A DNA stretch of 64,000 nt from Streptomyces roseirectus. Its GTDB lineage: Bacteria; Actinomycetota; Actinomycetes; Streptomycetales; Streptomycetaceae. The stretch covers positions 806,001-870,000 of the forward strand of contig NZ_CP060828.1 of assembly GCF_014489635.1 (NCBI RefSeq), read 5' to 3'. The notes beneath the pieces were generated by a model, which did not search any database, was not told the origin of the DNA, and saw only the letters and a program-made list of their open reading frames with translations. The position numbers and the translations under genes were made by a program. The stretch's first letter is position 1. Each line of letters starts with the position of its first letter. This document shows positions 7,752-61,611 of the stretch, one piece after another.

Positions 7752-7781
7752 ATGCTAAATGCGCTCGGATTAGGCGGTCAA
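7752..7781 (-). promoter_or_regulatory. Candidate sigma-70-type promoter of the NRPS operon
   Basis: On the minus strand TTGACC (7781-7776) and TAGCAT (7757-7752) are separated by 18 bp, upstream of the GTG at 7560. A leader of about 185 nt would result. The 7561-7842 interval is less GC-rich than the genes around it and holds no convincing gene. The assignment rests on hexamer match only. Confidence 0.4.
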
Positions 7782-7842
7782 CTGTGACCAGCACCACAGG
7801 AATTCGGCGGCGGAACGCCGTTTGGTGATCACCTCGACGGCG

Positions 7843-9048
7843 TCACCGCAGCTCGCCGGTCAGCCTGCGTGCCGCCACCTCCGCCCCGTCGGTGCGGAGC
7901 CGGCCCGCCAGGGACCGCGCGCGCTCGCGGGTCTCGGGCGACAGGGCGGTCTTGAGCGCGACGCCCAGGGTCTCGGCGGTCGTCTCCCGCGCGTCGAGGG
8001 CCGCGCCGAGGTCCAGCGCCGCCACCCGGCCCGCCCAGTACGGGTTGTCCGACAGCTGGAGGGGGACGACGACCTGCGGCGCGCCCGCGCGGGCCGCCGT
8101 CAGCGTCGTGCCCGCGCCTCCGTGGTGGACCACGGCGGCCACCCGGGGGAACAGGTTCTGGTGGTTGGCCTCGCCGACGGCGAAGCAGTCGTCCCCGTCG
8201 TCGAGGAGGTCGAGGTCCGCCCAGCCCCGGGACACGAGGACCCGGTGCCCCTGGGCGCGGATCGCCTCGACGGCCATGGCGCCGACGCCCTCGGCCGGGG
8301 ACATGCTGCCGAAGCCCACGTAGACCGGCGGGTCGCCCGCGTCCAGGAACCTCGTCAGGTCGGCCGGGAGGGGGCGGTCGTCCGGCAGGGTCCACGCGCC
8401 GGTCTGCACGACGTCCAGGCCAGGGGTTTCCTGCCACGGGCCCAGGACCGGGTCGGCCGCGAGCCACGGGTGGTCGGTGATGATGTGGTCGCGCACGTTG
8501 TCCACCGCAGGCAGGCCGAGCGCCGCCCGGTGCCTGGCCAGCGCCGCGCCGAACTGCGCGTCGACGTTGCGGGCGTCGAACTCCCACCGGGCCGCGTTGC
8601 CGGCGGCCTCGGGCTCCGGCCAGCCCGGCCGGGGCGGCGGCGCGTGGTGCGGCGACGGCAGGTGGACCGCCGCGTAGCTGACGTAGAGGTAGGGGATGCC
8701 CAGGGACTCGGCCACGGACCGCGCGGCGACCTGTCCCAGACCGGCCGCCAGCACCACGTCGCAGCCGTCGAACGCCGCGGGGAAGGCGCCGAACTGCGTC
8801 TCGACCAGCTCGTCGCGGTAGCGGGCCAGGTCCGCCGCCGAGGGCAGGGTCTTGCCGCGCATCATCTCCTTGACCGGCGGCCCGACCGGCACGAGCCCCA
8901 CTCCGACGCCCGCGAGCCGCGCCGCGAACTCCTCGTCCGGCGGGGTACACATCCTCACCTCGGCGCCGAGCTCCCGTAGCCGCACCGCGAGTGCCACCAG
9001 CGGCTCGACGTCGCCACGTGTCCCGTATGTGGACAACAGCACGCGCAT
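7843..9048 (-). CDS. GT1-family glycosyltransferase (glycopeptide GtfB-like)
   Basis: This 401-aa protein starts at an ATG 5 nt after GAGGA. The N-terminus MRVLLSTYGTRGDVEPLVAL is the classic beginning of the GT1/GtfA-E glycosyltransferases that decorate glycopeptides and other natural products. The C-terminal donor-binding region has VYVGFGSM (about residues 240-247) and the HHGGAGTT motif (about 310-317) that contacts the nucleotide-sugar diphosphate, with a following PLQLSDNPYWA segment. It is predicted to move a sugar from an NDP-sugar to an aglycone in the cytoplasm. It lies on the same strand as, and 282 bp upstream of, the synthetases, so it is likely a tailoring enzyme of that cluster. 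Acceptor and sugar cannot be told from sequence. Confidence 0.9.
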   Translation of the reverse strand: MRVLLSTYGTRGDVEPLVALAVRLRELGAEVRMCTPPDEEFAARLAGVGVGLVPVGPPVKEMMRGKTLPSAADLARYRDELVETQFGAFPAAFDGCDVVLAAGLGQVAARSVAESLGIPYLYVSYAAVHLPSPHHAPPPRPGWPEPEAAGNAARWEFDARNVDAQFGAALARHRAALGLPAVDNVRDHIITDHPWLAADPVLGPWQETPGLDVVQTGAWTLPDDRPLPADLTRFLDAGDPPVYVGFGSMSPAEGVGAMAVEAIRAQGHRVLVSRGWADLDLLDDGDDCFAVGEANHQNLFPRVAAVVHHGGAGTTLTAARAGAPQVVVPLQLSDNPYWAGRVAALDLGAALDARETTAETLGVALKTALSPETRERARSLAGRLRTDGAEVAARRLTGELR

Positions 9049-9259
9049 TCAGCGTCCTCTTTCGTCGGGTTTCTCATAACGCCGGGCGGGCTCCGCCGGG
9101 CCACAGCGGAATTATCCTTTCCCGAGTCACCGGAAACAGTCGCACCGGTAAGAATTTCGTATGCGATCGGCGTGAAAGGTTCGGCGCCGTCCGGAACCGG
9201 GCAGTCTGTGCCCGGCGAGGTGTGCAATTCCCCCCTCCACACAATCGGAGCGCTACGCG

Positions 9260-9964
9260 ATGCAGAGTTCGTTCACACCCGTACCTGATGTGTCGGTCAT
9301 CCTGCCCTGCGCCGGGCACGGAACGCGTTTCGGGGCGCCCTACCCGAAGGAGCTGCACTGCCTGGCTTCTGGAATCACGGTGCTGGACCGCAGCCTGGAA
9401 GCCGTCGTCGAACTCGCCAAGAGCGGACTGACCGTGCGTCTGGTCGTCGTGTTCGCGGAGCACAAGCTGGACACGGTGCGTCATCTGGCCCGCTACGCCG
9501 ACCTCTTCCAGATGGTCTTCGTCTACCAGGCGGACTCGTACGGACCCGGTCTCGACGGGGCGATCCGGGCCGCGCTGCCGATGACCCGGGGGCCGGTGGC
9601 CCTCGTCCTGCCCGACATCGTTGTCACAGGGCCGGACACCCAGGGCAAGCTCCTCGACGCCTTCCGGCGGGTGGAGGTCGCGGGCTGGAGCGTGGTCGCC
9701 GCCGAGGAACGGGACCACGAGACGCTGCGGCAGATGGGCGCGCTGGCCGTGGCCGAGGTGGACGGCGTCCTGACCGTGGGGGCGGCCACCGACAAGCCGG
9801 CGGACCCCTCGGGCTTCAACGCGTTCTGGGGCATGGTCGCCGTCGCCGAGAACGAGGCGCACCGGCTGCCCGACGTCGTGTGCGTGGGGGCCGCCAACCC
9901 GCTGGCCGGCGCGACCGCCCTCATGGTGGAGGGGATCGTCAACTACAACACCCCCGCGGGCTGA
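9260..9964 (+). CDS. Nucleotidyltransferase-like protein (GT-A/NTP_transferase fold)
   Basis: This 234-aa protein starts at an ATG with GGAG 8 nt upstream. Near the N-terminus VILPCAGHGTRFGAPYPKEL fits the G-x-G-T-R-x(n)-P-K nucleotide-binding signature of sugar-1-phosphate nucleotidyltransferases. VALVLPDIV near residue 117 resembles the strand carrying the metal-binding aspartate. It is shorter than RmlA (about 290 aa) and lacks an obvious oligomerisation arm. It is divergent from the glycosyltransferase with a shared 211-bp promoter region, so supply of an activated sugar (NDP-sugar) for that enzyme is an attractive but unproven role. Alternatives are a MobA/IspD-like cytidylyltransferase or a catalytically altered homologue. 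Confidence 0.65.
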   Translation: MQSSFTPVPDVSVILPCAGHGTRFGAPYPKELHCLASGITVLDRSLEAVVELAKSGLTVRLVVVFAEHKLDTVRHLARYADLFQMVFVYQADSYGPGLDGAIRAALPMTRGPVALVLPDIVVTGPDTQGKLLDAFRRVEVAGWSVVAAEERDHETLRQMGALAVAEVDGVLTVGAATDKPADPSGFNAFWGMVAVAENEAHRLPDVVCVGAANPLAGATALMVEGIVNYNTPAG

Positions 9965-42693: not shown

Positions 42694-44031
<1,338 letters not shown>

Positions 44032-44041
44032 CTATGGGCGC

Positions 44042-44881
44042 ATGAGGATGCACAACGCGGACGAGACCTGTGGGATCGCGCAGGCCGCACTCGTCCTGGG
44101 CGACTGGTGGAACGTACTCGTGCTGCGCGAAGTCGCCCGGGGGCACGTCAGGTTCGACGCGCTCGCCGCCGAGATCGGCCTGTCCCGCAAGGTCCTCACC
44201 GAACGGCTCGGCCGCCTCGTCGCCCACGGCGTCCTGCGCCGCAGCCTCTACCAGCGGCGCCCCGTGCGCTACGAGTACCTGCTCACCGACTCCGGCACCG
44301 CGCTGCTGCCGCTGCTGGTCGCGATGCAGGACTGGGGCGACCGGTGGATCCTGGGCGACGGCGCCCTCACCGCGACGGCCGCACAGGACGGCGCCGAACA
44401 CGCACGCATGCACGCCCTGCCCGGGACGCGCCTGCCGGACGGCCTCCACGCACCCGACGCCACCGCGACCGTCCTGTTCACCTATCCCGGCACGGGTGTC
44501 GACTGGGGGGATCCCGCGATCGCGGGAGCGGCCGGGTGCGCGCTGGAGCACGGGCTGTTCCGCGACGCCTGGCCGACGTTCCGGCGGGCGGGTGTGGAGG
44601 TGCGCGGGATCAGCACCCAACTCCCCTACGAACAGGCCGAGTTCGCCCGCGCCGAGAACATCCCGTACCCGCTGGTCTCCGACGCCGGGCACGAGATCGC
44701 CGCGGCTCTGCGCCTGCCGACGTTCCGGGGAGCGGGGCGGCTGCGGCACAAGCGGCTGATCCTGGTCGCGGACGGCGACGGGATCGTGCGGCACGTCCTC
44801 TTCCCCGTCACCGACATTCCGGAGGCGGTCTCCGAGGCCCTGCGGCTGGCGCTCGGCCGGCCCGCCCCGGAATTCCGTTGA
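44042..44881 (+). CDS. HxlR-type regulator fused to a peroxiredoxin-like domain
   Basis: This 279-aa protein has residues 1-105 forming an HxlR winged helix (LVLGDWWNVLVLREVARGHVRFDALAAEIGLSRKVLTERL...). Cys10 (DETCGIAQA) is at the position of the redox-active N-terminal cysteine of YodB-like HxlR regulators. Residues about 130-279 resemble an AhpC/TSA (BCP-like) domain: TVLFTYPG, GCALEHGLFRD (Cys166 aligned with the peroxidatic cysteine), VEVRGISTQ, YPLVSDAGHEIAAALRLPTF. The fusion suggests a sensor that reacts with peroxide or electrophiles and alters DNA binding. It probably controls itself and the divergent enolase through the dyads at 43989-44031. Confidence 0.85.
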   Translation: MRMHNADETCGIAQAALVLGDWWNVLVLREVARGHVRFDALAAEIGLSRKVLTERLGRLVAHGVLRRSLYQRRPVRYEYLLTDSGTALLPLLVAMQDWGDRWILGDGALTATAAQDGAEHARMHALPGTRLPDGLHAPDATATVLFTYPGTGVDWGDPAIAGAAGCALEHGLFRDAWPTFRRAGVEVRGISTQLPYEQAEFARAENIPYPLVSDAGHEIAAALRLPTFRGAGRLRHKRLILVADGDGIVRHVLFPVTDIPEAVSEALRLALGRPAPEFR

Positions 44882-45872: not shown

Positions 45873-46175
45873 ATGACCACCGTCGCCGAACACCGCACCC
45901 ACGACAGCCACACGCACACCCACGGCGAGGGCTGCGGCCACACCGCCATCCCGCACGGCGACCACACGGACTACGCGCACGACGGCCACCTGCACCGGGT
46001 CCACGAGGACCACACCGACGAGTGCGCCGCGACCGGCCACGCCACCCACGAGGGCCACGACCACACGCACGGCGAGGGCTGCGGCCACGTCGCCGTCCCG
46101 CACGAGGACCACGTCGACTACGTGCACGACGGCCACCGGCACGCGTCCCACGACGGCCACTGGGACGACCACTGA
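45873..46175 (+). CDS. Histidine-rich metal-binding protein
   Basis: This 100-aa protein consists of about one-quarter histidine and contains two near-repeats, each with THGEGCGH followed by (I/V)PH.DH.DY.HDGH. The repeated Cys/His clusters indicate binding of several transition-metal ions (zinc, nickel or copper) in the cytoplasm; no export signal is present. It has AGGAG before the ATG. An ArsR repressor follows 74 nt downstream, so the protein is likely made when a metal is in excess and acts as a buffer or chaperone. The specific metal cannot be told. Confidence 0.85.
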   Translation: MTTVAEHRTHDSHTHTHGEGCGHTAIPHGDHTDYAHDGHLHRVHEDHTDECAATGHATHEGHDHTHGEGCGHVAVPHEDHVDYVHDGHRHASHDGHWDDH

Positions 46176-46222: not shown

Positions 46223-46260
46223 ACGGTTGCCAGATGCTAACGTGCGCATATGGCAACCGT
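46223..46260. promoter_or_regulatory. Ten-bp inverted repeat overlapping the ArsR start codon
   Basis: ACGGTTGCCA (46223-46232) and TGGCAACCGT (46251-46260) are perfect complements spaced by 18 bp. The right arm overlaps the ATG (46250-46252). It is a candidate autoregulatory operator or an mRNA hairpin that masks the start. Confidence 0.5.
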
Positions 46261-46570
46261 TCCCACCTCGCAGCCGCCCGCGCCGGACGAACCGCTCCGC
46301 GAACTGCAGGCGGCCAGCGAGTTGCTGAAGGCGCTGGCCTCCCCCGTGCGCGTCGGCATCGTGCGCGAGCTGGCGCGGGGCGGGAAGTACGTCCATGAAC
46401 TGGTCGCGGTGCTCGGCGTGAGCCAGCCGCTCGTGTCGCAGCACCTGCGGGTGCTGCGCAACTCGCGGATCGTGACGACGCAGCGCCAGGCCCGCGAGAT
46501 CCAGTACTTCCTGACGGACGAACACGTCGCGCACATCGTGCTGGACGCGATCCGGCACGCGCAGGAGTAG
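46250..46570 (+). CDS. ArsR/SmtB-family metal-responsive repressor
   Basis: This 106-aa protein has a winged helix: ASELLKALASPVRVGIVRELARGGKYVHELVAVLGVSQPLVSQHLRVLRNSRIV, followed by REIQYFLTDEHVAHIVLDAIRHAQE. The C-terminal helix carries D/H-x(n)-H residues (DEHVAH, IRHAQE) resembling the alpha-5 metal site of SmtB/CzrA-type zinc sensors rather than the CxC site of arsenic sensors. It probably represses the upstream His-rich gene and itself. The ATG lies inside an inverted repeat with no normal ribosome site, suggesting leaderless translation. Confidence 0.9.
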   Translation: MATVPTSQPPAPDEPLRELQAASELLKALASPVRVGIVRELARGGKYVHELVAVLGVSQPLVSQHLRVLRNSRIVTTQRQAREIQYFLTDEHVAHIVLDAIRHAQE

Positions 46571-46702: not shown

Positions 46703-47491
46703 ATGAACGACGCCGTCCGGCCGCAGCGCAGGGCCGTCCTCGCCGGAGGGCTCGCGGTGGCCACCACCGCCGTCCTCGCCGGCTGTTCGTCGACGGACGG
46801 ATCCGGACCGGCCAAGGCGGTGAGCGCCGGTACGCCGTCGCCCGCCGCCTCCCCGAACGCCGCTCCCCCGGCCGCCCGGCCCGCCACCGCGCGGGCCGCC
46901 TACGCGCGGCTGCTGGAGGGCAACGAGCGCTGGGTGAAGGGGACGCCCCAACACCCCGACCAGAACCCGGCCAGGCGCGCGGCCCTCGCCCCCGAGCAGA
47001 AGCCGTACGGTGTGGTCGTCTCGTGCATCGACTCGCGGGTCCCGCCGGAGCTGGTCTTCGACACCGGGATCGGCGACCTGTTCGTGATACGCACCGGCGG
47101 GCAGGTCGTGCAGCCGGTGGTCGCCGGGTCCGCCGAGTACGGGCCCCTCACCGCGGGCTCCCCGCTCATCGTCGTGCTCGGGCACCAGAACTGCGGTGCG
47201 ATCAAGGCGGCGTACAAGGAGCTGAAGAGCGGCGGACGGCTGCCGGGCGACCTCCAGTCGATCGTCGAGGCCCTGCGCCCGGCGTACCGGGAGATCGCCA
47301 AGGTCAAGCACGCCGATCCGGTGGACGCGATGATCCGCGCCCACGCGAACCGCACCGCCGCCGACCTGCGCTCCAGCGACGTCCTCGCCCCGCTGGTGAA
47401 GAAGGGCGAGCTGACCGTGGTCAGCGCCTACTACTCGCTCGACACCGGCCGGGTGGAGACGCTGGCGGGGGCGCCGTCCGGAGTGCGGTGA
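46703..47491 (+). CDS. Exported beta-class carbonic anhydrase (lipoprotein)
   Basis: This 262-aa protein begins QRRAVLAGGLAVATTAVLAGCSS, a Tat-like start with a lipobox cysteine, followed by an Ala/Pro/Ser-rich spacer. The catalytic domain has the beta-carbonic anhydrase zinc ligands: Cys with the Asp/Arg dyad in VSCIDSRVPPE, and His and Cys in LGHQNCGAI. It hydrates CO2 at the outer face of the membrane. Extracytoplasmic beta-carbonic anhydrases of this type are common in streptomycetes. It lies downstream of the ArsR gene on the same strand, 132 nt away, and requires zinc, which may explain the neighbourhood. Confidence 0.92.
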   Translation: MNDAVRPQRRAVLAGGLAVATTAVLAGCSSTDGSGPAKAVSAGTPSPAASPNAAPPAARPATARAAYARLLEGNERWVKGTPQHPDQNPARRAALAPEQKPYGVVVSCIDSRVPPELVFDTGIGDLFVIRTGGQVVQPVVAGSAEYGPLTAGSPLIVVLGHQNCGAIKAAYKELKSGGRLPGDLQSIVEALRPAYREIAKVKHADPVDAMIRAHANRTAADLRSSDVLAPLVKKGELTVVSAYYSLDTGRVETLAGAPSGVR

Positions 47492-47513: not shown

Positions 47514-47873
47514 TCAGCAGCCGCCGATCGCCTCCCCCCGCACGAACCCGCTGAAGCGGTCCGCGAACTCGGCGCTGACGTACAGCTTCCCGCCGTTTCG
47601 CACGAACAGGTGCAGGTGCCGGGCGAGCCAGTCCTGGAAGAGCTTGCCGTCGCGGTGGGCGTCGAAGGCCGCGCGGTCCTTCCAGGCGCCGAGGAAGATC
47701 AGCTCGTTCGGGGTGGGCGGCGGGAGGGAGCCGTCGACGACGGCGGTGTGCAGGCAGTACATGTAGGTGTCCGGCTCACCGTTCCTCACCAGTTCGACGA
47801 GGTCCTTGAGCGCGGCGACGGCCTCCTCCCGCTTGCCTTCGACGTGCCACCACTTGGTGACGATGGAGATCAT
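47514..47873 (-). CDS. Antibiotic-biosynthesis-monooxygenase (ABM) fold protein
   Basis: This 119-aa protein of the dimeric alpha/beta-barrel fold reads VTKWWHVEGKREEAVAALKDLVELVRNGEPDTYMYCLHT, then LIFLGAWKDRAAFDAHRDGKLFQDWLARH, the usual ABM layout. Such proteins act as cofactor-free monooxygenases, haem-degrading enzymes or small-molecule binders. It is the last gene of a six-gene oxidative operon, with its ATG overlapping the stop of the ferritin-like gene. A long frame open upstream through that gene is coincidental; GGGAG before 47873 supports this start. Confidence 0.88.
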   Translation of the reverse strand: MISIVTKWWHVEGKREEAVAALKDLVELVRNGEPDTYMYCLHTAVVDGSLPPPTPNELIFLGAWKDRAAFDAHRDGKLFQDWLARHLHLFVRNGGKLYVSAEFADRFSGFVRGEAIGGC

Positions 47874-49018
47874 GACGAGGCTCCCTTCGGCGTCGGGGTG
47901 TAGTGGAACCGGGGGCAGAGCCGGCGGGCGGGGTGGGCCGGGTCCGGGGTGCGCATCAGGGCGACGGCCTTGTCCTTGAGGGCCTTCATGCCGTGGACGG
48001 CCAGCAGGAGCGGGTCGGCGTCGCGTTCGCCGCCGGGGGCGAGCCTGTCCTTGACCTTCCGGGTCCGGCCGGCGAAGGCGAGGTAGAGGTCGTCGACGAG
48101 CCGGGAGTAGGTGCGGTCGAACTGGTCGAGGGCCAGGTCCTCGGGGCTGTGCGGGGCGCCGGCGCGCTTGACGTGGAACGCCGGGTGGACGGCGTCGTAG
48201 TCGATCGGCACCAGGGAGCCGCGCGGAATCTCGTCGGCGGTCTGGTCGCTGCGGAAGCGGCGTCCGGTCTGGAGTTCGCGGAAGCGGGCGTAGTGCGAGT
48301 ACATCTGCCAGCCGTTGTTGAGGCGGTCCTCGGTGGTGACCTTCTTGGCCTGGCGGCGCGTGTACTGCTCCGGCATGCCCTCGCCCTCGTCCACGATCAT
48401 GTGGATCGCGGCGAGCGCGCTCGCCCGGTCGACGACCTGGATCGCGCGGCCGGCGCCCCCGTAGTAGTGGGTGGCCGCGACCTGGTTGCCGTGGGTGAAG
48501 TCGGCGTCCTGGCAGATCCCCGCCGCCGCGCCGAGCGCGGCGGCGACGGCCTCGTAGAACTCGCCGATGGTGGCGTACCTGCCCTCGACGCGCTGGAGTT
48601 CGTCCAGGGACTTCGCGCCGTGGTAAGGCGACTCGATCCTTACGAAGCTCTCCACGGCGGCGGGGGTGAAGGGCTGGAGGGTGAGCGTGCCGATGCCGGA
48701 GACGAGGGCGCTGTCGAGGGGGTACTCGGGGACCGGGTGGATGTTCTTGGCGGTGCGGAAGGTGACCGGCTCGGTGCTGGGTCTCTCGCCGAGCGCGTTG
48801 AGGACGTTCGCGGCGAGCGTCATGTGCAGCATCTCCTCCATGACGACGCTGCGGATGGTCTGGACCGCCTCGGTGTTGGTGCCGTCCTTGATGGAGTAGA
48901 GGGCGGTGAGGTAGACGGGGATGGTGCTGAGTTCCAGGCCGATGGCGAGCTGGAGGGCGGCCTTCAGCTCGGTCAGGTTCTTCAGGGGGGCCGGTTTGCC
49001 GGTGGGCGGGGTGCTCAC
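47870..49018 (-). CDS. Ferritin-like protein of the VioB/iminophenylpyruvate dimer synthase family
   Basis: This 382-aa protein starts with a GTG inside the GMC stop (GTGA). The N-terminal helical bundle TELKAALQLAIGLELSTIPVYLTALYSI...VVMEEMLHMTLAANVLNALG contains E and E-x-x-H iron-ligand patterns of the ferritin-like domain found in VioB, RebD and StaD, which couple indole-pyruvate imines. The body continues with TPAAVESFVRIESPYHG and HMIVDEGEGMP, another metal-ligand-like segment. The protein is much shorter than VioB (about 1,000 aa), so it is a stand-alone version. It may oxidatively couple or modify a product of the flavoenzymes in the same operon. Confidence 0.85.
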   Translation of the reverse strand: MSTPPTGKPAPLKNLTELKAALQLAIGLELSTIPVYLTALYSIKDGTNTEAVQTIRSVVMEEMLHMTLAANVLNALGERPSTEPVTFRTAKNIHPVPEYPLDSALVSGIGTLTLQPFTPAAVESFVRIESPYHGAKSLDELQRVEGRYATIGEFYEAVAAALGAAAGICQDADFTHGNQVAATHYYGGAGRAIQVVDRASALAAIHMIVDEGEGMPEQYTRRQAKKVTTEDRLNNGWQMYSHYARFRELQTGRRFRSDQTADEIPRGSLVPIDYDAVHPAFHVKRAGAPHSPEDLALDQFDRTYSRLVDDLYLAFAGRTRKVKDRLAPGGERDADPLLLAVHGMKALKDKAVALMRTPDPAHPARRLCPRFHYTPTPKGASS

Positions 49019-50985
49019 GTGAACAGCTCCTCGGCGATCTTGTCACCCGTGTGCAGCGCCAGGGCGGTCATGGTGAGGGTGGGGTTGGAGGTGCCGAGCG
49101 TCGGCATGCTGCCGCAGCCGACGACGTACAGGTTGGGCAGGTCGTGGCTGCGCTGGTACTTGTCGACGACGGAGGTCTTCGGGTCGTTGCCCATGCGGTG
49201 GGTGCCGACGACGTGGCCGGCGCCGGCGACCCAGTAGGTGACGCCGTCGTACTCGACCTCCATGGGGTTGTCGGTGTCGTAGTGGCTGTAGTCGCCGGTC
49301 TCGTACGTGGGCCGCTTCACCTTCCGGGTCATGCCGAGCCTGGCGAAGAGCTGCCGGTTCGCCTCGGCTGCCCAGGGCAGGGCGGCCCGGACGTACTCGG
49401 AGAGGTCGTAGTGGATGACGGGGCGGTGTTTGCCGAGCGCGTCGCGGTAGGTGTCGTCGATGGTGACGCGGTTGCGTTCCTCGGGGTCCTGTTCCAGCTC
49501 CCAGGCGATGCGGAACTGCCGGGGCACGATCTCGCCGATCCGCTTGCGCAGCGCGGCGCCGTACAGCGCGGGGCGTTCGCTGCCGACGAGGTCGATGACG
49601 GTGTCGTAGGGGGCGTTCTCGGGGAAGTTCCAGCCCCAGTTGCCGATCTCGACGCGGAAGGCGGTGCGTTCCCCGCGGAAGGTGCCGTCACGGAAGGCGG
49701 GGATGCCGGAGGTGGAGCCGGGGCCCCGGTAGGCGCCGACGTTGTCGGGGAGCAGGCCCCAGGTGAGCAGCAGGGGGTGGTCCATGAGGTTGCGGCCGAC
49801 CTGTTTGCTCCGGTTGGCGGCCTTGGAGGCGAGGAGCAGGGTGGCGTTCTCGATGGCGTTGGCGGCGAGGACGTAGGTGCGGGCGGTGACGGTGTGGTCG
49901 GTGGGCGGTGCGCCGTCCTGGTAGGTGCGGTACTTGATGCCGGTGACCTCGGCGCCTTGCCCCGTGGTGTGGACGACCTCCATGGCGACGGACTGGCTGC
50001 GGATGGTGACGCGGGCGCGTTCCTCCTCGTCGGGCCGCAGCTTCTCGGGGTACTTGACGATCAGCTCGTACAGGGTCTTGAGCGCGTTGTACTTGGCCTG
50101 GACGGGGCAGATCGGGATGCAGCTGGAGTTGCCCTCGCAGCGCTGGCCGCGTTCGGCGTTCCCGGCGGCGCCGGTGATCCTGTAGTCGGGGGTGGTGGGC
50201 GTGGAGTTGCGGGCGACGGGGGTGTTGCTGATCTTGACCGGGAAGGTGTGCGTGGGCTTTTTCAGGTCGGGCAGCTTGATCTTCAGGTCGCCGATGGTGT
50301 GGCTGATGTACCGGTCGAGGTAACTGGAGGGGATCTCCGCCATCGGGAAGCTGTAGACGCCGTTCTTGAACTTGTCGGTGTTCGCGCTCTTGAAGTACGT
50401 CTTCGGGTCGTCGCCGATGCCCGGGTAGTACTGGTGGGCGACGTCCGCCGCGACGCCGAGGATGTCCCACTCGGCGCGCTCGTAGTACGGCTTGAGGTCG
50501 TCGTAGGTGAGCGGCCAGTCGACGGCCCGCTGGTAGACGGTGCGCATCCGGAAGTCGTTGGGCAGCATGCGCAGGCAGGTGCCGAGCCAGTGCAGGGTGG
50601 TGCCGCCGAGCGAGCGGGCGTAGTCGCTGCCGAAGGGCAGGGGGCCCTTCTGGACGAAGTAGCCCTGGGCGCTGGTGACCGTGTTGCCCTGCGCGTCCTT
50701 GAGCGGCCGGATGTCGAGGACGTCCGGCTGGGGCGCGGAACTGCTCGCCGGGTAGGGGGAGTTGGGGACCTTGAGGAGGGCTTCGTGGTACGCCTCGACG
50801 TAGGTGTCGTACTTGTCGGCGCTGAGCGCCGTGGCGCGGCCGGCCTCCAGGATCAGGATCCTCGGGTGCTCGTCGTCCGCCGCGCACTTCTCGATGACGG
50901 TCTTGGCGACGACGGCGCCCGAGATGCCGCCGCCGACGATGACGAGGTCGTAGTCGGGCTCGGTGGTCTCGGCGGGGTCGGTCAT
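49015..50985 (-). CDS. GMC-family FAD oxidoreductase
   Basis: This 656-aa protein has DLVIVGGGISGAVVAKTVIEK (FAD-binding GxGxxG near residue 13), SLGGTTLHWLGTCLRM (GMC signature region), and the C-terminal catalytic pair His in VVGTHRMGND and Asn in TLGTSNPTLTMTALAL. A cysteine-rich insertion CEGNSSCIPICPVQAKYN is typical of the dehydrogenase branch. It oxidises an alcohol, sugar or similar CH-OH group. It is preceded 23 nt upstream by a gene resembling the small subunit of FAD-dependent sorbitol/gluconate dehydrogenases, suggesting a two-subunit enzyme, although no signal peptide or haem c subunit is present. Confidence 0.92.
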   Translation of the reverse strand: MTDPAETTEPDYDLVIVGGGISGAVVAKTVIEKCAADDEHPRILILEAGRATALSADKYDTYVEAYHEALLKVPNSPYPASSSAPQPDVLDIRPLKDAQGNTVTSAQGYFVQKGPLPFGSDYARSLGGTTLHWLGTCLRMLPNDFRMRTVYQRAVDWPLTYDDLKPYYERAEWDILGVAADVAHQYYPGIGDDPKTYFKSANTDKFKNGVYSFPMAEIPSSYLDRYISHTIGDLKIKLPDLKKPTHTFPVKISNTPVARNSTPTTPDYRITGAAGNAERGQRCEGNSSCIPICPVQAKYNALKTLYELIVKYPEKLRPDEEERARVTIRSQSVAMEVVHTTGQGAEVTGIKYRTYQDGAPPTDHTVTARTYVLAANAIENATLLLASKAANRSKQVGRNLMDHPLLLTWGLLPDNVGAYRGPGSTSGIPAFRDGTFRGERTAFRVEIGNWGWNFPENAPYDTVIDLVGSERPALYGAALRKRIGEIVPRQFRIAWELEQDPEERNRVTIDDTYRDALGKHRPVIHYDLSEYVRAALPWAAEANRQLFARLGMTRKVKRPTYETGDYSHYDTDNPMEVEYDGVTYWVAGAGHVVGTHRMGNDPKTSVVDKYQRSHDLPNLYVVGCGSMPTLGTSNPTLTMTALALHTGDKIAEELFT

Positions 50986-51008
50986 GGTTCCACCTCGGGT
51001 TCTCGGGG

Positions 51009-51491
51009 TCACAGGGGCAGGGCCGGGGGTTCGCCCCAGGAGCCGAAGCCCGGGGGTTTGGCGCCCATGGGGTGCGCTCCGGCGGCGACCCACACCAGGC
51101 CCTCGCGGTGGCTCTGGCCGGAGACGACGTGTTCGACGTCGTCGGCGGTCGAGCCGAAGCGGTCGCGGTAACCGGCGGGCAGGGGGTACCAGCGGCCGAG
51201 GTACCAGAGTTTGACCAGGGCGGCGGCGACCGGTCCGAAGCGGTCGCTGTCGACGATGGCCTCCTTGAACGCCTCGCCGGCGCCGGGGGTGGTCTCGCCG
51301 TCCTCGGTGAGGGCGTCGTCCGCGTAGCGCAGGAACTGGCCGGCCTCGCGTTCGCCGATCATCCGCAGGAGGGTCGCGTAGTAGGTGTCGATCATGCCGG
51401 TGCCGGCGAGTTCCGCGCGGTCGAAGCCGGTGAGTTCGACGGAGAGGTCGGTGAAGATGTTCTTGGGGGTGCGGGGGGTGTCGTTGCCCAT
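51009..51491 (-). CDS. Small dehydrogenase subunit-like protein (FAD-sorbitol/gluconate DH small subunit type)
   Basis: This 160-aa protein begins NIFTDLSVELTGFDRAELAGTGMIDTYYATLLRMIG, matching the start of FAD-dependent sorbitol/gluconate dehydrogenase small subunits (F..LS..LTG...L......Y...L). It then has VAAALVKLWYLGRWYPLPAGYRDRFG, and ends SHREGLVWVAAGAHPMGAKPPGFGSWGEPPALPL. Classical small subunits have a Tat signal and escort the GMC subunit to the periplasm; this one has none, so the complex should stay in the cytoplasm. It sits between the FAD oxidase and the GMC gene in the operon. The family assignment is by pattern only. Confidence 0.65.
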   Translation of the reverse strand: MGNDTPRTPKNIFTDLSVELTGFDRAELAGTGMIDTYYATLLRMIGEREAGQFLRYADDALTEDGETTPGAGEAFKEAIVDSDRFGPVAAALVKLWYLGRWYPLPAGYRDRFGSTADDVEHVVSGQSHREGLVWVAAGAHPMGAKPPGFGSWGEPPALPL

Positions 51492-51509
51492 GCGGGTGCT
51501 CCCGTGGGG

Positions 51510-52976
51510 TCAGAGGAGGGTGCGGTTGAGGGGGCTGAGGTCGAGGGGTGCGGACAGGTCGGGTTCGAAGGCGGAGTCGACGGACTGCTGGAACGTGAAG
51601 AAGCCCTCGGGGTCGGCGGCCTTCTTGATCCGCCGCAGCTCGGCCAGGTTCCGCTCGCCGTAGTAGGCGGTGGCCCACTTCTCCTGGAGGGGGTCGATGT
51701 AGTTGACGTAGGCGCCCTGGAAGTCGTCCTTCATCGCCTCGCCGAGGCGGACGGCCCACTCGACGTTGGCGCGGGTGTCGGCGGGGTCGGCCCAGATGGC
51801 CTTGACCTCGAAGACGTACCGCTTGTCGCGGTGCGGGTAGGGGCCCTGGCCCGCGAGTGCCGGGTCGGCGACCTTGCCCCGGCCGTGCGTCCACACGGCG
51901 AAGGTGTCGGTCGAGGGCGCGGTGGCCATCGCGTCCCGGAGGGTCCTGATCATCCCCGGGGTCCAGCCCTGCTGGTCGCCGATCATGCCGGAGCGGATGT
52001 ACGCCAGCCGGTCGCCGACGAGGGTGGAGCGGCCGATGGCCATCTCCAGCCTGGGCAGCGGCATCGAGTGCAGGCGGACGTCGAGGGGGTTCAGCTTCAG
52101 CATCGGCGCGAGCAGCGCGGCGCCCTCGGCGTAGGGGCCGTTGTGGACCGGCGTGATGCGGAACACCGGGATCCTGCGGGTGGGTTCGGCGGGGTCGGGG
52201 TCGTGGCCGACATAGCCGTAGGCGGCCATCTGCGGCGGGAGTTTCGCCGCCCACGCGTCGTAGGCGGCGATGACCTCCTCGGCGCGCTCCAGGCGGTAGG
52301 AGAGGGCGCCGCCGAGGACGGTGTCGGCGGGCGGTTTGTGCAGTCGCAGGGTCATCTCGACGGCGACGCCGAAGTTCCCCCCGCCGCCGCCCCGGCACGC
52401 CCAGAACAGGTCCCGGTCCTCCTTCGCGGCGGCGTCGGCGGTGAGCGTGCGCAGGGTGCCCGAGGCGTCGACCAGCTTGATCATGGTGACGTTGTCGCTG
52501 CCGAGGCCGTAGGAGCGGGAGACGAAGCTGTAGCCGCCGCCCAGCAGGAAGCCGGGCAGCCCCACGGTGAGGCAGCCCCCGCCGACCGGGATCAGCCCGT
52601 CGCCGGCGCGGTCGGCGTACCCGTACACGTCGTTCCACAGGGCGCCCATCTGGACGGTGAGCTGTCGCGCCTCCTTGTGCGGGGTGATCGTCCGCATCAG
52701 GCCGAGGTCGAGGACGATGCCGCCCCGGTTGAGGCAGTACCCGGCGGCGCTGTGGCCGCCGCCGCGCACCGTCAGGGGGCGTTCGGTGTCTTTGGCGAAC
52801 GCGAGGGCGAGGGCGACGTCGGCGGTGGAGTTCGCGCGGATCACGAGGGCCGGGGGTGTGCGGGTGCGGCCGTTGTCGATGGCGACCGTCCTCGCGTACT
52901 CGGCGCTGCCGGGTTCACAGACGTAGCCGCTGAGCCTGCGGGCCAGCTTGTCGACGGCGGTGCGGAAGCCGGGCAC
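51510..52976 (-). CDS. FAD-linked oxidase (berberine-bridge-enzyme-like, PCMH type)
   Basis: This 488-aa protein starts at a GTG 2 nt after the DyP stop, with its ribosome site inside the DyP end. TVRGGGHSAAGYC contains the histidine for 8-alpha-histidyl-FAD attachment, and VGGGCLTVGLPGFLLGGGYSF contains a cysteine placed as in bicovalent members. YVNYIDPLQEKWATAYYGERNLAELRRIKKAADPEGFFTFQQSV is the BBE C-terminal domain, although the usual N-x-x-Y ends differently. Such oxidases remove hydride from sugars, alkaloids or alcohols and give hydrogen peroxide, which the coupled DyP peroxidase could use. Confidence 0.9.
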   Translation of the reverse strand: MPGFRTAVDKLARRLSGYVCEPGSAEYARTVAIDNGRTRTPPALVIRANSTADVALALAFAKDTERPLTVRGGGHSAAGYCLNRGGIVLDLGLMRTITPHKEARQLTVQMGALWNDVYGYADRAGDGLIPVGGGCLTVGLPGFLLGGGYSFVSRSYGLGSDNVTMIKLVDASGTLRTLTADAAAKEDRDLFWACRGGGGGNFGVAVEMTLRLHKPPADTVLGGALSYRLERAEEVIAAYDAWAAKLPPQMAAYGYVGHDPDPAEPTRRIPVFRITPVHNGPYAEGAALLAPMLKLNPLDVRLHSMPLPRLEMAIGRSTLVGDRLAYIRSGMIGDQQGWTPGMIRTLRDAMATAPSTDTFAVWTHGRGKVADPALAGQGPYPHRDKRYVFEVKAIWADPADTRANVEWAVRLGEAMKDDFQGAYVNYIDPLQEKWATAYYGERNLAELRRIKKAADPEGFFTFQQSVDSAFEPDLSAPLDLSPLNRTLL

Positions 52977-52978
52977 GG

Positions 52979-54589
52979 TCACTTCTCCTCCGCGGTGCCG
53001 AACGCGGTGAGCGCGCTCAGGCTCGGGACGAAGAAGTACTCGCCGCCGCGCATGGTCACCCACTGGCCGACGGCCTGCGTGAAGGTGTGGCTCATCGGCG
53101 TCGGGAAGTGCGGGGGCTCCGGCTGCGGCTTGGCGAAGTCGAGCTGGTTGTGGGAGGCGTAGATCTTGGGCCAGGGCTGCGGGACCTGCGTGGGCGGCGG
53201 GGTCCGTCGGGGCAGGGTGCCGATCACCGGGTCGAGGCCGCTGCCGGGGACGAGGAAGTCCTGGTAGTTCGCCCAGGCCGCCTGGATGAACTCGAACTGG
53301 TCGGGGATGCTGCTCTGCGCGCACAGGAACAGCAGGCCGACCTTGCCGTCCTCCGGCTTCGGGTCCAGGGTCACCTTGCCGTAGCTGATGCCCCGGCGGA
53401 CGATCCGGTTGGCGCGCTCCTGGGTGAGCGGCACCCCGAACTGGCGCTGTTTGTCGCCGCGCGGGTTGGTCTTGCGGATGTGCGCCTGGAAGGGGCAGCG
53501 GACGGCGTCGACGTCCTCGTCGTAGGCGAAGTTGTTCGGCTCGGCGCCGAGTCCGGCCGTGTCGCGCTCCAGGACCGGGGTGCCGTCCTGGAAGCGGCCC
53601 ACCATGTAGGCGCCGGCGAGGGCGACGTCGTGCGGGGTGGCCGGGGGTGTCGTGGGGTGGGCGTGCTGGGCGATCTTCGCGGCGAGGGCCTTCTCGCCGG
53701 CGCGGAAGGCGGGGACGTCCTGCTCCAGCTTGCGGTACACGAAGTAGGAGCCGTAGGCGGTGGACCTGTCGCCGCCGGGGTCCTTGAGGAGGACCAGGTC
53801 GAGGGGGGCGCTGGGGTCGTAGCGGTCGATGCCGCCCTGGCGGGTGCGGGCGCGGTCGATGTCGTCGGCGAAGAAGAGGGGCTGGCTGATGCCGTCGACG
53901 AAGCCGAAGTGCTCACGTACGGGGGCCTGGGCGTTCCACTGGCCGGACGCGTCCAGGCGCATCGCGGCGCCGGTCTCCTCGTGGAGGTGGGCGGCGATGT
54001 CCTTGAGGTCGTTCCTGAGCCGCTTGAGGAGCGGGTCGAGGCGGTTGGTGGCGTGGTCGTCTGCGGCGACGAGCAGGACGTGCAGGGTGTTGCGGAAGCC
54101 CGGCTCCCACTGGTCGTCCTTCGGGTCGTTGAGGAACCCCGCGCGCTGTTTGGCGCCGGCGAGGAAGGACGGGTCGTCGGGGGTGGCGTCCGGGCCGAGT
54201 CCCAGGTCGCGGTAGCAGGCGGCGGAGAGCATCACGCCGACGAAGACCTTGCTCGCGTCCTCGACCGCTTGCTGTGCTCCGGCGGGGTTCGCCTCGGTGG
54301 CCGCCAGCGTCGCCCGGTAGGCCCGCGCTTCCTCCCGCTGCCGGTGGGCGGAGGTGACGAGCTTCGAGGTGACCAGTCCGGCGAGCCACTGTCTGGCCTT
54401 CTTCCGGTCGGCCGCGTCGGCCGTCTTGAAGGTGACGAACAGGTGGCGGCTGTGGTCGCGGCCGTGGCTCTTGAGGATGTTGCCCTGGAGGTCCTTCAGC
54501 ACCGCCACCAAGGCGGCCTGGGTGTTGCGGGTCGGCGGGATCTCCGGGAGGTCCGGATTGATGGCGGTCTGTTTGAGGTCGATGGCCAT
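52979..54589 (-). CDS. DyP-type haem peroxidase
   Basis: This 536-aa protein has the DyP hallmarks GFVDGISQP (the G-x-x-D-G motif, catalytic aspartate), the proximal histidine in CPFQAHIRKTNPRGD and the distal arginine in RIVRRGISYG. There is no twin-arginine signal, so it is cytoplasmic, unlike many Streptomyces DyPs. Length exceeds that of compact A/B-type enzymes because of insertions, suggesting a C/D-type (P/V-class) enzyme. It is first in the six-gene operon; the FAD oxidase follows after 2 nt. It would consume hydrogen peroxide from the flavoenzymes to oxidise an aromatic or amine substrate. Confidence 0.93.
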   Translation of the reverse strand: MAIDLKQTAINPDLPEIPPTRNTQAALVAVLKDLQGNILKSHGRDHSRHLFVTFKTADAADRKKARQWLAGLVTSKLVTSAHRQREEARAYRATLAATEANPAGAQQAVEDASKVFVGVMLSAACYRDLGLGPDATPDDPSFLAGAKQRAGFLNDPKDDQWEPGFRNTLHVLLVAADDHATNRLDPLLKRLRNDLKDIAAHLHEETGAAMRLDASGQWNAQAPVREHFGFVDGISQPLFFADDIDRARTRQGGIDRYDPSAPLDLVLLKDPGGDRSTAYGSYFVYRKLEQDVPAFRAGEKALAAKIAQHAHPTTPPATPHDVALAGAYMVGRFQDGTPVLERDTAGLGAEPNNFAYDEDVDAVRCPFQAHIRKTNPRGDKQRQFGVPLTQERANRIVRRGISYGKVTLDPKPEDGKVGLLFLCAQSSIPDQFEFIQAAWANYQDFLVPGSGLDPVIGTLPRRTPPPTQVPQPWPKIYASHNQLDFAKPQPEPPHFPTPMSHTFTQAVGQWVTMRGGEYFFVPSLSALTAFGTAEEK

Positions 54590-54726
54590 GCCGCCCTTAC
54601 TGTCCGCGACGACCCGTGACTAATCTTGGCCAGCTCCTCGCCCTCCGCATCCGCCATGGGTGAGGAGAAACGTCGCGAACTGCACGGATGTGCGATGCCG
54701 CGGGGGGCCTGCGAGGCACGGGAACA

Positions 54727-55175
54727 TCACTCGTTCGGTGTCGTGTGCCGAGGCTCAAACGCGCCGTGCGGGTGATGCCCGGTGAACACCTGAACGGGCG
54801 GCCGACCGGACCTCGCACAGGCGTGCGGCAGCCGGTCAGGCTGAGGAGGGGGGCGGTCGGTCGCCCAGGAGGCGAGCAGGCGCAGGCTGTCGTGAGTGGG
54901 GGTGCCGGCCTCGGCGGTCCAGACGATGATCTGGAGGTCCGGGTCGGCGGCCCAGGTGACGGCGTTCCAGTCGAGGTGCAGGTCACCGGCGACGGGGTGG
55001 CGCAGGTGCTTGGTGCCGGTGTCGCGGACGGCGACGTCGTGGGCGTCCCACCAGGCGAGGAACTGCTCGTCGCGGGCGGAGAGTTCGCGTTCCACGCGAC
55101 GATCTCGGTACGCGGGCCGATCACGAACGCCGGGGTGTGCGCCATGTCGTCGATCATCCGCTGCGGTTGCGGCCG
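54727..55175 (-). pseudogene. Remnant of an MmyB-type XRE regulator (ligand-binding domain only)
   Basis: On the minus strand RMIDDMAHTPAFVIGPRTEIVAWNA (near 55165-55095) and, in a different frame, HDVAVRDTGTKHLRHPVAGDLHLDW...VWTAEAGTPTHDSLRLLASWA (about 55045-54850) match the two halves of the MmyB-like sensor domain of XRE regulators. The helix-turn-helix is missing and at least one frameshift separates the halves. The fragment is fused in frame to the remains of an amidase gene, so a deletion probably joined two loci. It is unlikely to be functional. Confidence 0.7.
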
Positions 55176-55221
55176 CGCCTCGCTCCTCGGCCGACTGCGC
55201 CGGGGCGGACGGAGGTGAACA

Positions 55222-56053
55222 CGGCCATGGGTAGGTGTTGCGGACCGCGCGCAGGGGGTCGTCCTCGGTGCCGGCGCGCCACTCGCCGATGAGGGGCGGG
55301 AGGCAGGCCATGGTGGGCGTGACGAGGATGTCGAAGTTCGCGAGGAAGCCCTCGACGATGCGCCGGGACAGCTCCTGGGTGCGGCCCGGCCCTTCCGTGA
55401 ACGCCCAGGAGTCGACGGCCCGTGCCGCCTCGCGCAGGGCGCGGTCGTGCGGTTCGACGCGGTCGGGGTCGGTGAGGCGCCGCCGACGTTCCACAGGGTC
55501 GTGAACGCCGTGACGAGGCCGTCGGCCGGCGGCAGCGGGAGCGGGGTGTCGACGAGGTGGTGGCCGGCCGCTTCGAGGGCCCGCAGGACGGTGTGGACGG
55601 CTTCGACGCGCGCCGGAGGCCGACGAGGCCGGTGCAGGAGGCGGGGATGCGGATCGAGCCGCCGCCGCCCTCGGCGTGGGCGAGCGGCGACGGCGACGGC
55701 TGCCCCGCTGGACGAGCCGCCGGGTGTGCGGTCCGGGTCCCAGGGGTTGCGGGTGATGCCCAGGGTGTCGTTCTCGGTGACGGGCAGGCTGCCGAACTCG
55801 GAGGTGGTGGTCTTGCCGAGCGGCACGAACCCGGCCTCCTCCAGGCGCCGCACGACCGGGTCCGGCTCCTTGGCCGGGGTGCGCGCGGTGGCGGCGGAGC
55901 CGTAGGTGGTCGACGTCGACGCAGCCTTGAAGGGCAGCGGCACGCCGTGGAAGGGCGGGAGGTCGCCGGTGTGCGCGGCGCGGGCCGCGGCGGCGGTGCG
56001 GTGGCAGAAGGCGTTCAGGCGGGGGTGAACGGGTCGATCGGCGGACGGGTCAC
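55222..56053 (-). pseudogene. Decayed amidase-signature enzyme
   Basis: The minus strand reads HPRLNAFCHRTAAAARAAHTG, GVPLPFKA, FVPLGKTTTSEFGSLPVTEND and RTPGGSSSGAAVAVA, the N-terminal half of the amidase-signature family. The frame then shifts to GGGGSIRIPASCTGLVGLR (the catalytic-serine region), and after a deletion of roughly 150 codons jumps to a C-terminal part RVEAVHTVLRALEAAGHHLVD...LTDPDRVEPHDRALREAARAVDSW in yet other frames. A GTG near 56052 with a good ribosome site gives only 12 codons before a stop. Multiple lesions show a dead gene. Confidence 0.8.
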
Positions 56054-56185
56054 GGGTGTTCCTCTCCTGACGGGACCGCCCCTGACGCACCCTGACATCC
56101 GTCAGGACCGCGATCGGCGTGCGGGTTCCTAGGGTTCGTGGTGTCTTCGAGCACCGCCCCGATCGACCGACCGAAAGGCATGCCC

Positions 56186-59696: not shown

Positions 59697-61611
59697 CTAC
59701 CACCAGGCGCCGGAGGTGTCCCGCAGGGTGTTCGTCCCGCAGTGCACCTCGCCCATGCCGAGGTGGTACGTGTAGTAGTCGTCGATGTAGGAGACGGTCA
59801 GGCCCGCGCCCCGGTAGGCGGCGGTGACGGCCTCGGTGAAGAGGTCCTTGCCGGCGACGACCGGGCCCCACTGCTTGGGGGCGAGGTAGTGGGTGCGGGA
59901 GAGGACGACGCCGTTGACGGCGCCGGGGACGTAGGCGCTGGTCTGGACGGTCGGGGCCTTACCGGCGGCGTCCGCGAGGTACTTCTGCTGGCCGTGTTCC
60001 CGCAGGGCCTGGGTGAGGCCGGCGCCCACGCGGGTCAGGCGGGGGACGCTGAGGTCGCCGCTGGGCTGGGTCTCGCGGAGGTAGAGGGCGGGCACGCGGA
60101 CCACCTCGGCGTCGGTGACGCCCGTCTCGCGCCTCAGGATCGCCAGGTTCGCGGCGACGCGTTCGGCGGCGAGCTGGTTGTCGGCGACGAGGTGGGGGTT
60201 GGCGAGGGCCTGGTCGATGGTCTCCTTCGGGGCCTGGGCGCCGGACACCTTGGGGACGGAGAACATCTTCGTGCGGCCGTGGCCCGCCCGCTGGGCCTCG
60301 CGCAGCAGGCGCAGGCCCGCGTCGGGGTCGGCGAGGCCGACGCGCCAGCCGCGCGGGGTGTCGGCGGGCAGGAACTGGACGAACTCGTCGACGTGGCCGA
60401 CGCCGAGCCAGGACGTGTCCAGCAGCAGGGGGTTCTGTAGGCCCTGCGAGGCGAGGAGGGTGCGCATCGCCTGGGAAGGGCGGGCGCCGCTGTCCTTGCG
60501 CTCGCCCATGATGATGCGGCCCGCCGGGTAGGAGCGGCCGGCGTGCGTGTGGGGCGGGATCGTCTCCAGGTTGCCCATGGAGTTGAGGGACCAGTCGGGG
60601 ACGGTGTCCGGGCGGGCGATCTCCACGACGCCGGTGTCCCGGCCGCGCAGCTTCTCGAAGAGTTCCCGGCCCGCCTCGCGGCCGGGCTGGGCCGAGCGGA
60701 GCATCACGCGCATCGCCTGCCGCTTGCCGCTTGCCGCCGGGGCCGGTCATGCTCACGTACGCCGGTTCCACGAAGTCCTGCGCCCACGGGTCGTTGTACG
60801 CGTCGAAGGTGACCAGCGGGGCCGTGATCCCGGCCTTCCTCACCTCGCCGGCCAGGTTCTTCACGAACTTCCGCTGCTCCTGGCCGTACAGGTCGTCATC
60901 GTCGTTCGTGATCCGCGTGACCATCACCTGCCGGGCGTTCTGGAGGTGGTGGTGCGTCAGGAGGGGGGCGACGCGCAGGGTGACCTCGTCGGTCGTCGAG
61001 CCGGCCGGCGAGGTGACCGTCAGCCGGACGACGGCCCGGCCGTCCCACTTCTTCGTGTCCCGGATGACGTCCGTGGCCTCGACGCCGAGTTCGACGCCGA
61101 CGCGCAGGTCGGCGGCGAGCAGGCGGGTCCTCGGGGTGACGAGGGTCCACTCGCCGTCGCGCTTCAGGAAGAGGCGCGTGTGGGTGGCCCCCACGGTGAC
61201 CGCCACCCGCCCCCGCACGTTCGGCTTCACCCCGGCCAGCGGCGCCGTCCGGATCCGCGCCAGGTCGGCGGCGTCCGCCTCGCCGTTCACCACCAGGTCC
61301 TTCGCGTCGTCGCACGCCGCGAGCCGCGCGTCGGACAACGGCTTCCCCCCGGGCCCGGCGACCGGACAACGTCTGGAGTCATCATCGATGTTGGGCAGGA
61401 ACACGGCCCCCCTCCCGACGCTCCACCCGTCCTCCCCCGCCGCGTCCGTGTCCCCAGCGACATCCACCCGCCCGTCCCGGTTCACGTCCACCCGCAGGTC
61501 CGCCCGCGGCACCTGCCCCGCGGCCACCGCCGGCACCACCAGCACCGACCCCGCGGCGGCCAACGCCAGCACCAGCGAACCAGCCGGGTGTATACGCGTA
61601 CGACAACGCAC
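59697..61611 (-). pseudogene. Secreted protein-arginine deiminase, frameshifted by a 7-bp tandem duplication
   Basis: A GTG at 61611 with AGAGGAAG upstream and a signal peptide (GSLVLALAAAGSVLVVPAVAAG) begins a frame carrying a beta domain and WAQDFVEPAYVSMTGPGGKRQA. The sequence then continues in another frame as MRVMLRSAQPGREAG through HVDEFVQFLPA to GEVHCGTNTLR, with the catalytic cysteine, ending WW. The C-terminal motifs are those of peptidyl-arginine deiminases (conversion of arginine to citrulline). Removing one copy of a directly repeated GCCGCTT at 60719-60732 restores one frame of about 635 aa with the expected GGKRQAMRVML junction. The break may be a true mutation or a sequencing error. 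Confidence 0.88.
60719..60732. repeat. Seven-bp tandem duplication causing the deiminase frameshift
   Basis: GCCGCTT occurs twice in direct tandem (60719-60725 and 60726-60732), followed by GCCGCC. Deletion of one unit rejoins the two deiminase frames exactly. Confidence 0.85.

Follow-up and report, generated by a model that had tools for sequence, protein, structure and literature searches.

Why should six genes for oxidative enzymes of different families lie together on one strand of a Streptomyces genome, and what would their products do? The question is raised by a stretch of 64,000 nucleotides from Streptomyces roseirectus (contig NZ_CP060828.1, positions 806,001 to 870,000), hereafter the window, in which a DyP-type peroxidase, an EncM/BBE-like flavin adenine dinucleotide (FAD) oxidase, a small dehydrogenase subunit, a GMC catalytic subunit, a PF12902 ferritin-like protein and an ABM-domain protein are encoded by six intact genes, head to tail on the minus strand from 54589 to 47514 (7.1 kb by open reading frame (ORF) coordinates). 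An earlier note had read these genes as a single cytoplasmic operon, and re-measurement reproduced exactly the intergenic gaps it listed, namely 2, 18, 23, -4 and -4 bp in transcription order. Here we propose a two-module cytoplasmic oxidative operon, in which the 3Fe-4S cluster of the GMC protein would feed a di-iron ferritin-like protein and an oxidase–peroxidase pair would serve as an accessory. We give this proposal an even chance of being right.

The locus was compared with its relatives in a set of 87 loci, made up of the best 80 of 182 confirmed GMC relatives from a scan of named genomes, six further stretches from relatives and the window itself; the short stretches L001-L009 lie outside this count. 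Many of the 87 are closely related (several from Flavobacterium, Dyadobacter and Chryseobacterium) and counts over them are not independent, and the flank on one side is shorter than 5 kb in 21 loci and shorter than 3 kb in 14. With hidden Markov models of the window genes, small and GMC genes were detected in all 87 loci. A ferritin-like gene was detected in 85 of them, always on the same strand and in the order small–GMC–ferritin; it is missing from L083, where the contig stops at the GMC gene, and from L095. The trio occurs in Streptomyces, Kitasatospora, Nocardia, Catenulispora, many Bacteroidota, Proteobacteria, Acidobacteriota and one Verrucomicrobium. Pairwise divergence of the GMC protein is correlated with that of the ferritin-like protein (rho 0.74) and of the small subunit (rho 0.68), values that none of 199 permutations reached. 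Together with the kept order, this correlation argues that the trio has been inherited largely as a unit. The earlier note had taken all six genes as the unit. Their co-occurrence was confirmed, but the near-invariant unit is the trio (85/87), with the DyP, FAD oxidase and ABM genes accessory to it.

The GMC protein of the trio is of a dehydrogenase type. Its best matches in the PDB are the large subunits of FAD-glucose dehydrogenase (FAD-GDH) and fructose dehydrogenase (FDH), and its C283-x5-C289-x3-C293 motif aligns with C212, C218 and C222 of FAD-GDH, which we take to be the ligands of a 3Fe-4S cluster. All three cysteines are kept in 87 of 87 GMC proteins, as is the putative catalytic H591, and N634 is kept in 86 of 86. 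It follows from the alignment that the cysteine triad is predicted to bind a 3Fe-4S cluster, and the conserved motif suggests that the GMC protein delivers electrons to a partner protein rather than carrying out plain alcohol oxidation. Its pairing with a dehydrogenase small subunit, as in the earlier note, is upheld through weak matches. The window small subunit itself has no Pfam match; for its L065 orthologue PF12318 (FAD-SLDH) scores 27.5 bits (cut-off 24.2), and a small-subunit profile searched against the PDB returned 7w2j_B first and 6a2u_A second.

In the FAD-GDH and FDH complexes (6a2u, 8hdd and 7w2j) the alpha subunit is the GMC protein, gamma the small subunit and beta a tri-haem cytochrome c. 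The trio has in common with them a Cx5Cx3C GMC protein with catalytic His and Asn, a small gene before the GMC gene and a redox gene after it. The classical operon order is gamma-alpha-beta, and it was seen here in two control loci, L116 and L117, of the same order as the Proteobacterial trio genome L061 (Undibacterium). In both, a Tat-type small subunit gene is followed by a GMC gene with Cx5Cx3CP and then by an overlapping or adjacent frame with three CxxCH motifs. A third PF12318 match, L118, scored under the cut-off, and the stretch examined around it contains no GMC match. In the trio loci, by contrast, the ferritin-like gene occupies the position of the cytochrome gene after the GMC gene. 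In none of the 87 loci did a search of both strands reveal a multi-haem frame (at least two CxxCH, stop to stop) within 3 kb of the trio, 14 of the loci having shorter flank on one side; a called ORF with a single CxxCH lies near the trio in seven. According to the sections of PMC9727119 consulted, the third haem of FAD-GDH is 7-8 Å from the 3Fe-4S cluster and in contact with both other subunits.

The trio also differs from FAD-GDH and FDH in where it appears to reside. Small subunits of both controls carry a twin-arginine translocation (Tat) signal. None of the 87 trio small subunits combines a twin arginine with an unbroken hydrophobic stretch, upstream in-frame sequence included, and eight twin-arginine matches among them were inspected and judged to be chance. 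Additionally, FAD-GDH Cys213, beside a cluster cysteine, forms a disulfide to the small subunit (PMC9727119, in the same sections). The matching GMC residue is Glu284 in the window and is Cys in none of the 87 loci; on the small-subunit side, the matched region is free of Cys in 68 of 87, and the window protein contains no Cys at all. The absence of the inter-subunit disulfide cysteines fits a cytoplasmic protein. The trio is apparently cytoplasmic, as the earlier note had it. A complete FAD-GDH was considered and rejected, since no Tat signal and, within 3 kb, no multi-haem cytochrome gene was found for the trio, which looks instead like the dehydrogenase half of FAD-GDH.

The protein in the cytochrome position matches PF12902 at 161.8 bits (cut-off 22.3), and its nearest PDB structure is 3hl1 (E=1.5e-16). 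Six residues, E29, E62, H65, E129, E213 and H242, are invariant in trio members (from 85/85 to 83/83 with letters at the position) and in 18 further aligned PF12902 members, one of which, L098, itself has a GMC gene and a small gene next to it. A di-iron site takes four Glu and two His as ligands, and we infer that these residues form a putative site of this kind. In P0196 and in L096 (517-2316; Fer4_19 just below cut-off) a PF12902 domain is fused to two CDGSH stretches and Fer4_19, a possible precedent for Fe-S electron delivery to this domain. Where the source names PF12902 proteins, they are called hypothetical protein, ferritin-like or rubrerythrin. The VioB-type label given to the window protein earlier did not hold: VioB identity was rejected on a score of 27.4 bits against a cut-off of 1250 for TIGR04492, with 382 residues against a model of 1003 positions, of which only 668-814 were matched.

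Most PF12902 genes sampled stand apart from a GMC gene: one lies near three of 16 in a class-wide sample (the window's included) and near four of 12 in a Flavobacterium sample. The other two GMC-associated genes of the class-wide sample stand in the order GMC–ferritin–small. The trio is rearranged in this way in L098 and L100, from the window's own genus. The small gene is uncommon among genomes related to the window's (8 of 61, with the window genome counted).

The accessory genes were then compared across the same loci. Seven of the other 11 close actinobacterial loci have all six genes in the window's order, which bears out the reading of one conserved operon; the earlier note had named scattering of these families among relatives as the finding that would speak against it, and synteny left the operon standing. 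In one of the seven, L018 (Streptomyces altiplanensis), the DyP is truncated and the FAD oxidase split in two frames (7682-9447), the pieces being searched separately; the damage is either decay or an assembly error. L013, L016 and L091, also close actinobacteria, have the trio without the other three genes. Beyond the 12 close actinobacterial loci, the FAD oxidase was found in 15 of 75 loci and an ABM gene in 18 of 75.

In none of the 87 loci does the FAD oxidase occur without a haem peroxidase-type gene. Counting neighbours by clustering (same strand, within 5 kb of the trio), all 23 of the 87 loci with the oxidase also have a DyP (11) or an FMP-type haem protein (14), two having both, and all 23 have an ABM or Dabb protein. 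A peroxidase-type gene is thus present in 23/23 loci with the oxidase versus 18/64 without it (Fisher p=3e-10, uncorrected for kinship); the DyP of L068, about 7 kb past its ferritin gene, was excluded from this count, and in L039 and L043 the FMP-type gene is on the opposite strand. The pairing of oxidase and peroxidase suggested earlier therefore proved sensible, and H2O2 made by the FAD oxidase would be used by DyP.

The make-up of the accessory set in other phyla is informative on this point. Over the best aligned segment, the FAD proteins of Bacteroidota share 45-48% identity with that of the window. In this phylum the full set runs small–GMC–ferritin–ABM–FMP haem protein–Dabb–FAD, then a cupin in most, and the Verrucomicrobium locus L041 runs DyP–Dabb–FAD–cupin–small–GMC–ferritin, its DyP holding the position that the FMP-type protein has in Bacteroidota. 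Beside the FAD oxidase, an FMP-type protein replaces DyP in 12 Bacteroidota loci and accompanies it in two more. This protein, its abbreviation presumably meaning Flavobacterium meningosepticum peroxidase, has no match to DyP models and does not occur in the window. Nine of its 34 members were checked against the two FMP-type families of NCBIfam, peroxidase (NF040571) and haem-binding (NF040572). Eight of the nine passed the haem-binding model, L060 falling just short (145.8 vs 150), and two passed the peroxidase model (L073 and L088; 611.6 and 616.4 bits vs 300), both from Chryseobacterium loci without the FAD oxidase. These family models make it likely that the FMP-type protein found with the FAD oxidase acts as a peroxidase. 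That one oxidase is accompanied by non-homologous haem proteins in different loci is the strongest argument that the oxidase's peroxide is used by a peroxidase. In L027 (6546-9437) and L028, the latter by cluster membership, an FAD amine-oxidase-like gene and an FMP-type gene lie directly upstream of the trio.

Residues expected of these enzymes are kept. The window DyP matches DyP_N (30.5 bits, cut-off 27.5), Dyp_perox_C (24.6, cut-off 20) and TIGR01413 (103.2, cut-off 100.5), with PDB 5c2i at E=4e-90. It has in common with Alr1585 and DyP2 the distal Asp, proximal His and Arg, and differs from them in being operonic with an FAD oxidase and the trio. Its D232 (GFVDG), H370 and R398/R399 are kept in 12 of 12 sequences with letters there, the thirteenth being the truncated L018; the DyP proteins of L058 and L062 depart from GxxDG, with R and S at two positions, though they keep the Asp, His and Arg, and that of L058 scores below the family cut-off. 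H75 and C135 of the FAD oxidase are each present in 22 of 22 homologues with letters there (23 homologues in all). Attachment through His and Cys gives a bicovalent FAD, as in BBE-type oxidases, and the window oxidase is expected to carry its FAD in this way through H75 and C135. The nearest solved structure, EncM, has the covalent-FAD His, also common to the BagK-FevA1 oxygenases, but a Val at the Cys135 position. With its extra Cys135, and with no polyketide synthase among the six genes, the enzyme does not resemble a monocovalent oxygenase of the EncM type; its FAD_binding_4 and BBE domains and predicted His and Cys attachment are those of a BBE-like bicovalent oxidase. It scored 151 against a cut-off of 800 for the BagK/FevA1 model and reached no NCBIfam cut-off. 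Similarly, the ABM protein matches PF03992 at 40.3 bits, and W8, E33, Y39 and H73 are kept in 26 of 26 homologues near a trio.

Based on these results, we propose the following scheme. In the first module, the small subunit and the GMC protein would form a dehydrogenase of the FAD-GDH/FDH type, whose flavin would oxidise an alcohol or sugar-like substrate and pass electrons singly to the 3Fe-4S cluster. From there they would go to the di-iron centre of the ferritin-like protein, in a complex of the three proteins, where ordinary members use the tri-haem cytochrome c, and the di-iron centre would reduce O2 or activate it on a second substrate. In the second module, the EncM/BBE-like oxidase with bicovalent FAD would oxidise an intermediate and yield H2O2, and a haem peroxidase (DyP in the window, the FMP-type protein in Bacteroidota) would receive this peroxide and spend it on the same pathway, with ABM and Dabb barrel proteins possibly acting on the product. 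More tentatively, and with somewhat greater doubt than belief, we suggest that the trio may represent a new soluble class of O2-activating enzyme, in which dehydrogenase electrons go straight into a di-iron protein in the cytochrome slot. Oxidising one substrate would then drive the oxygenation or coupling of another with no need for NAD(P)H, a reductase or ferredoxin, the trio being joined in some lineages by an oxidase with an interchangeable peroxidase.

Several observations weigh against this scheme. L095 keeps the small and GMC genes without a ferritin-like gene, L090 carries DyP and the trio and no FAD oxidase, and 46 of 87 loci have no same-strand peroxidase-type gene within 5 kb (21 loci have shorter flank). 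No GMC gene lies within about 1.5 kb on each side of 13 of the 16 class-wide and eight of the 12 Flavobacterium PF12902 genes. Among close actinobacteria, divergence of the GMC and ABM proteins is not correlated (rho 0.10, reached by 56 of 199 permutations). The homology of the small subunit to those of FDH and FAD-GDH is weak (E=0.0014 for the first PDB match and 0.57 for the second), and the GMC protein of the control L117 also lacks the disulfide cysteine, so the absence of this residue is not diagnostic. In the ferritin-like protein, Glu occupies position 239 in 61 trio members, forming ExxH with H242, and Met does so in 13 altogether, the window included; the invariant E213 may take the place of this Glu as an iron ligand. 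Finally, the di-iron site and its pairing with the cluster in a trio complex are predictions from sequence.

Other explanations of the same genes have to be weighed against the proposed electron transfer from the GMC protein to the ferritin-like protein. A product rather than electrons might be handed over, as between VioA and VioB, an idea near to that of the earlier note: two molecules of a reactive imine, quinone methide or ketone, made by the GMC protein or the FAD oxidase, would be coupled by the ferritin-like protein with no electron transfer. The partial VioB match described above speaks for this, as does the amine-oxidase-like gene upstream of the trio in L027, with its same-cluster relative in L028, and fungal PF12902 genes have been described close to lodA/lodB-like oxidase genes (PMC4417212, in the sections consulted). 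However, the match covers only part of VioB, the one member of the VioB/RebD group (iminophenylpyruvate dimer synthases) that was compared; VioB has about 1000 residues, and here a GMC/3Fe-4S dehydrogenase takes the place of an amino-acid oxidase as partner. The amine oxidase of L027 resembles VioA over the N-terminal 47 positions only (43.8 bits, cut-off 600), and a 3Fe-4S motif in 87/87 GMC proteins together with the kept small subunit is hard to square with mere product hand-over. We regard this explanation as unlikely, and the imine coupling that the earlier note had invoked for the ferritin-like protein found no direct support.

It is equally conceivable, and in our view just as improbable, that the trio is a terminal oxidase that burns a cheap alcohol or sugar and reduces O2 to water at the di-iron site to protect the cell or its oxygen-sensitive steps, with DyP or the FMP-type protein clearing peroxide and no biosynthetic product. 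Some ferritin-like di-iron proteins do reduce O2 or H2O2, and the broad, patchy distribution, varied neighbours and presence of peroxidase partners would all suit such a role. The FAD oxidase, ABM, Dabb and cupin neighbours, on the other hand, resemble tailoring enzymes for a specific substrate, and an FAD oxidase would add peroxide, not remove it. Less probable still, and in our opinion a poor prospect, is that two unrelated functions share one transcript, the DyP, FAD oxidase and ABM genes having been joined to the trio by repeated gene insertion. The three actinobacterial loci with a bare trio, the 60 of 75 non-close loci without the FAD oxidase and the loci without a peroxidase-type gene counted above are what one would expect of this. 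Yet the accessory set recurs, rearranged and with parts substituted, in Verrucomicrobiota and Bacteroidota (L041, L065 and others), which makes accident unlikely.

Neither the six-gene set nor a GMC/3Fe-4S enzyme with a ferritin-like partner was found described in the open-licence literature searched. The parts of the trio belong to known families and the combination appears new; electron transfer to the di-iron protein, if shown, would make it a new enzyme architecture. If the proposal is true, the acceptor subunit of an FAD-GDH-type enzyme can be replaced by a di-iron protein to give a self-powered O2-activating enzyme, a group of PF12902 proteins gains a partner and a role, and a pathway present in several phyla is indicated. 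The exchange of DyP and the FMP-type protein beside the same oxidase would be a natural case of a swap between non-homologous peroxidase types.

The gene surroundings of the trio give few hints of a substrate. Pfam searches of 55 selected neighbouring ORFs found no family in more than two members at E<=1e-5 and no common scaffold gene; with no shared neighbour family, the substrate cannot be read from gene context. Clustering picked out recurrent neighbours, namely the FMP-type haem protein (31 loci), Dabb (15), an ADC-like protein (14) and cupin_5 (10). The ADC-like protein is found on the strand of the trio, at most 5 kb away, in L020, L023, L026, L032, L034, L045, L048, L052, L054, L085, L086, L089, L094 and the ferritin-less L095, and weakly resembles acetoacetate decarboxylase (E=1e-4 for the L085 member, below cut-off).

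Features of the six-gene operon in the window (positions are those of the window).
Feature	Position	Strand	Description
DyP-type peroxidase	52979..54589	-	536 aa; related to Alr1585 and DyP2
EncM/BBE-like FAD oxidase	51510..52976	-	488 aa, GTG start; FAD_binding_4 and BBE (Pfam)
Small subunit	51009..51491	-	160 aa; distant kin of FDH and FAD-GDH gamma subunits
GMC catalytic subunit	49015..50985	-	656 aa; GMC_oxred_N/C (Pfam), Cx5Cx3C motif
PF12902 ferritin-like protein	47870..49018	-	382 aa, GTG start
ABM-domain alpha/beta-barrel protein	47514..47873	-	119 aa; PF03992

The 9.95-Mb host genome has one PF12902, six GMC C-domain, four BBE and eight ABM matches, the window's own included, and five DyP C-domain matches, among which the weak-scoring window DyP is not counted. 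The families are sparse in this genome, yet all six genes lie within 7.1 kb, which argues for clustering beyond chance. The G+C content of the operon is 69-73%, against a range of 69-78% in the window. As the earlier note had stated, the six genes include no scaffold synthase, and Pfam searches limited to them also found no polyketide synthase. An anti-phage defence system was considered and rejected, as none of the six proteins matches any PADLOC model (E<=0.001). A sigma-70 promoter scan found no site and a terminator scan one (shuffle mean 3.0), both uninformative in a genome of such high G+C content.

Downstream of the operon lies a convergent carbonic anhydrase gene (46703-47491). Just upstream, at 54597-56090 on the minus strand, the start of an amidase (PF01425, 105 bits) is fused in-frame to a ligand-binding piece of an MmyB-like regulator, which runs on in an overlapping frame (54727-55494); on the same strand as the operon, these pieces resemble gene remnants. 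Further off, a 100-residue His-rich protein with a repeated HTHGEGCGH stretch (45873-46175, plus strand) adjoins an ArsR-type regulator (46250-46570), and the two look like a metal-handling pair. An HxlR regulator domain and an AhpC/TSA redoxin domain share a single open frame at 43754-44881 on the plus strand. The window also encodes, at 59697-60713 on the minus strand, a strong match (E=2e-91) to the PF03068 protein-arginine deiminase domain, a family best known from animals.

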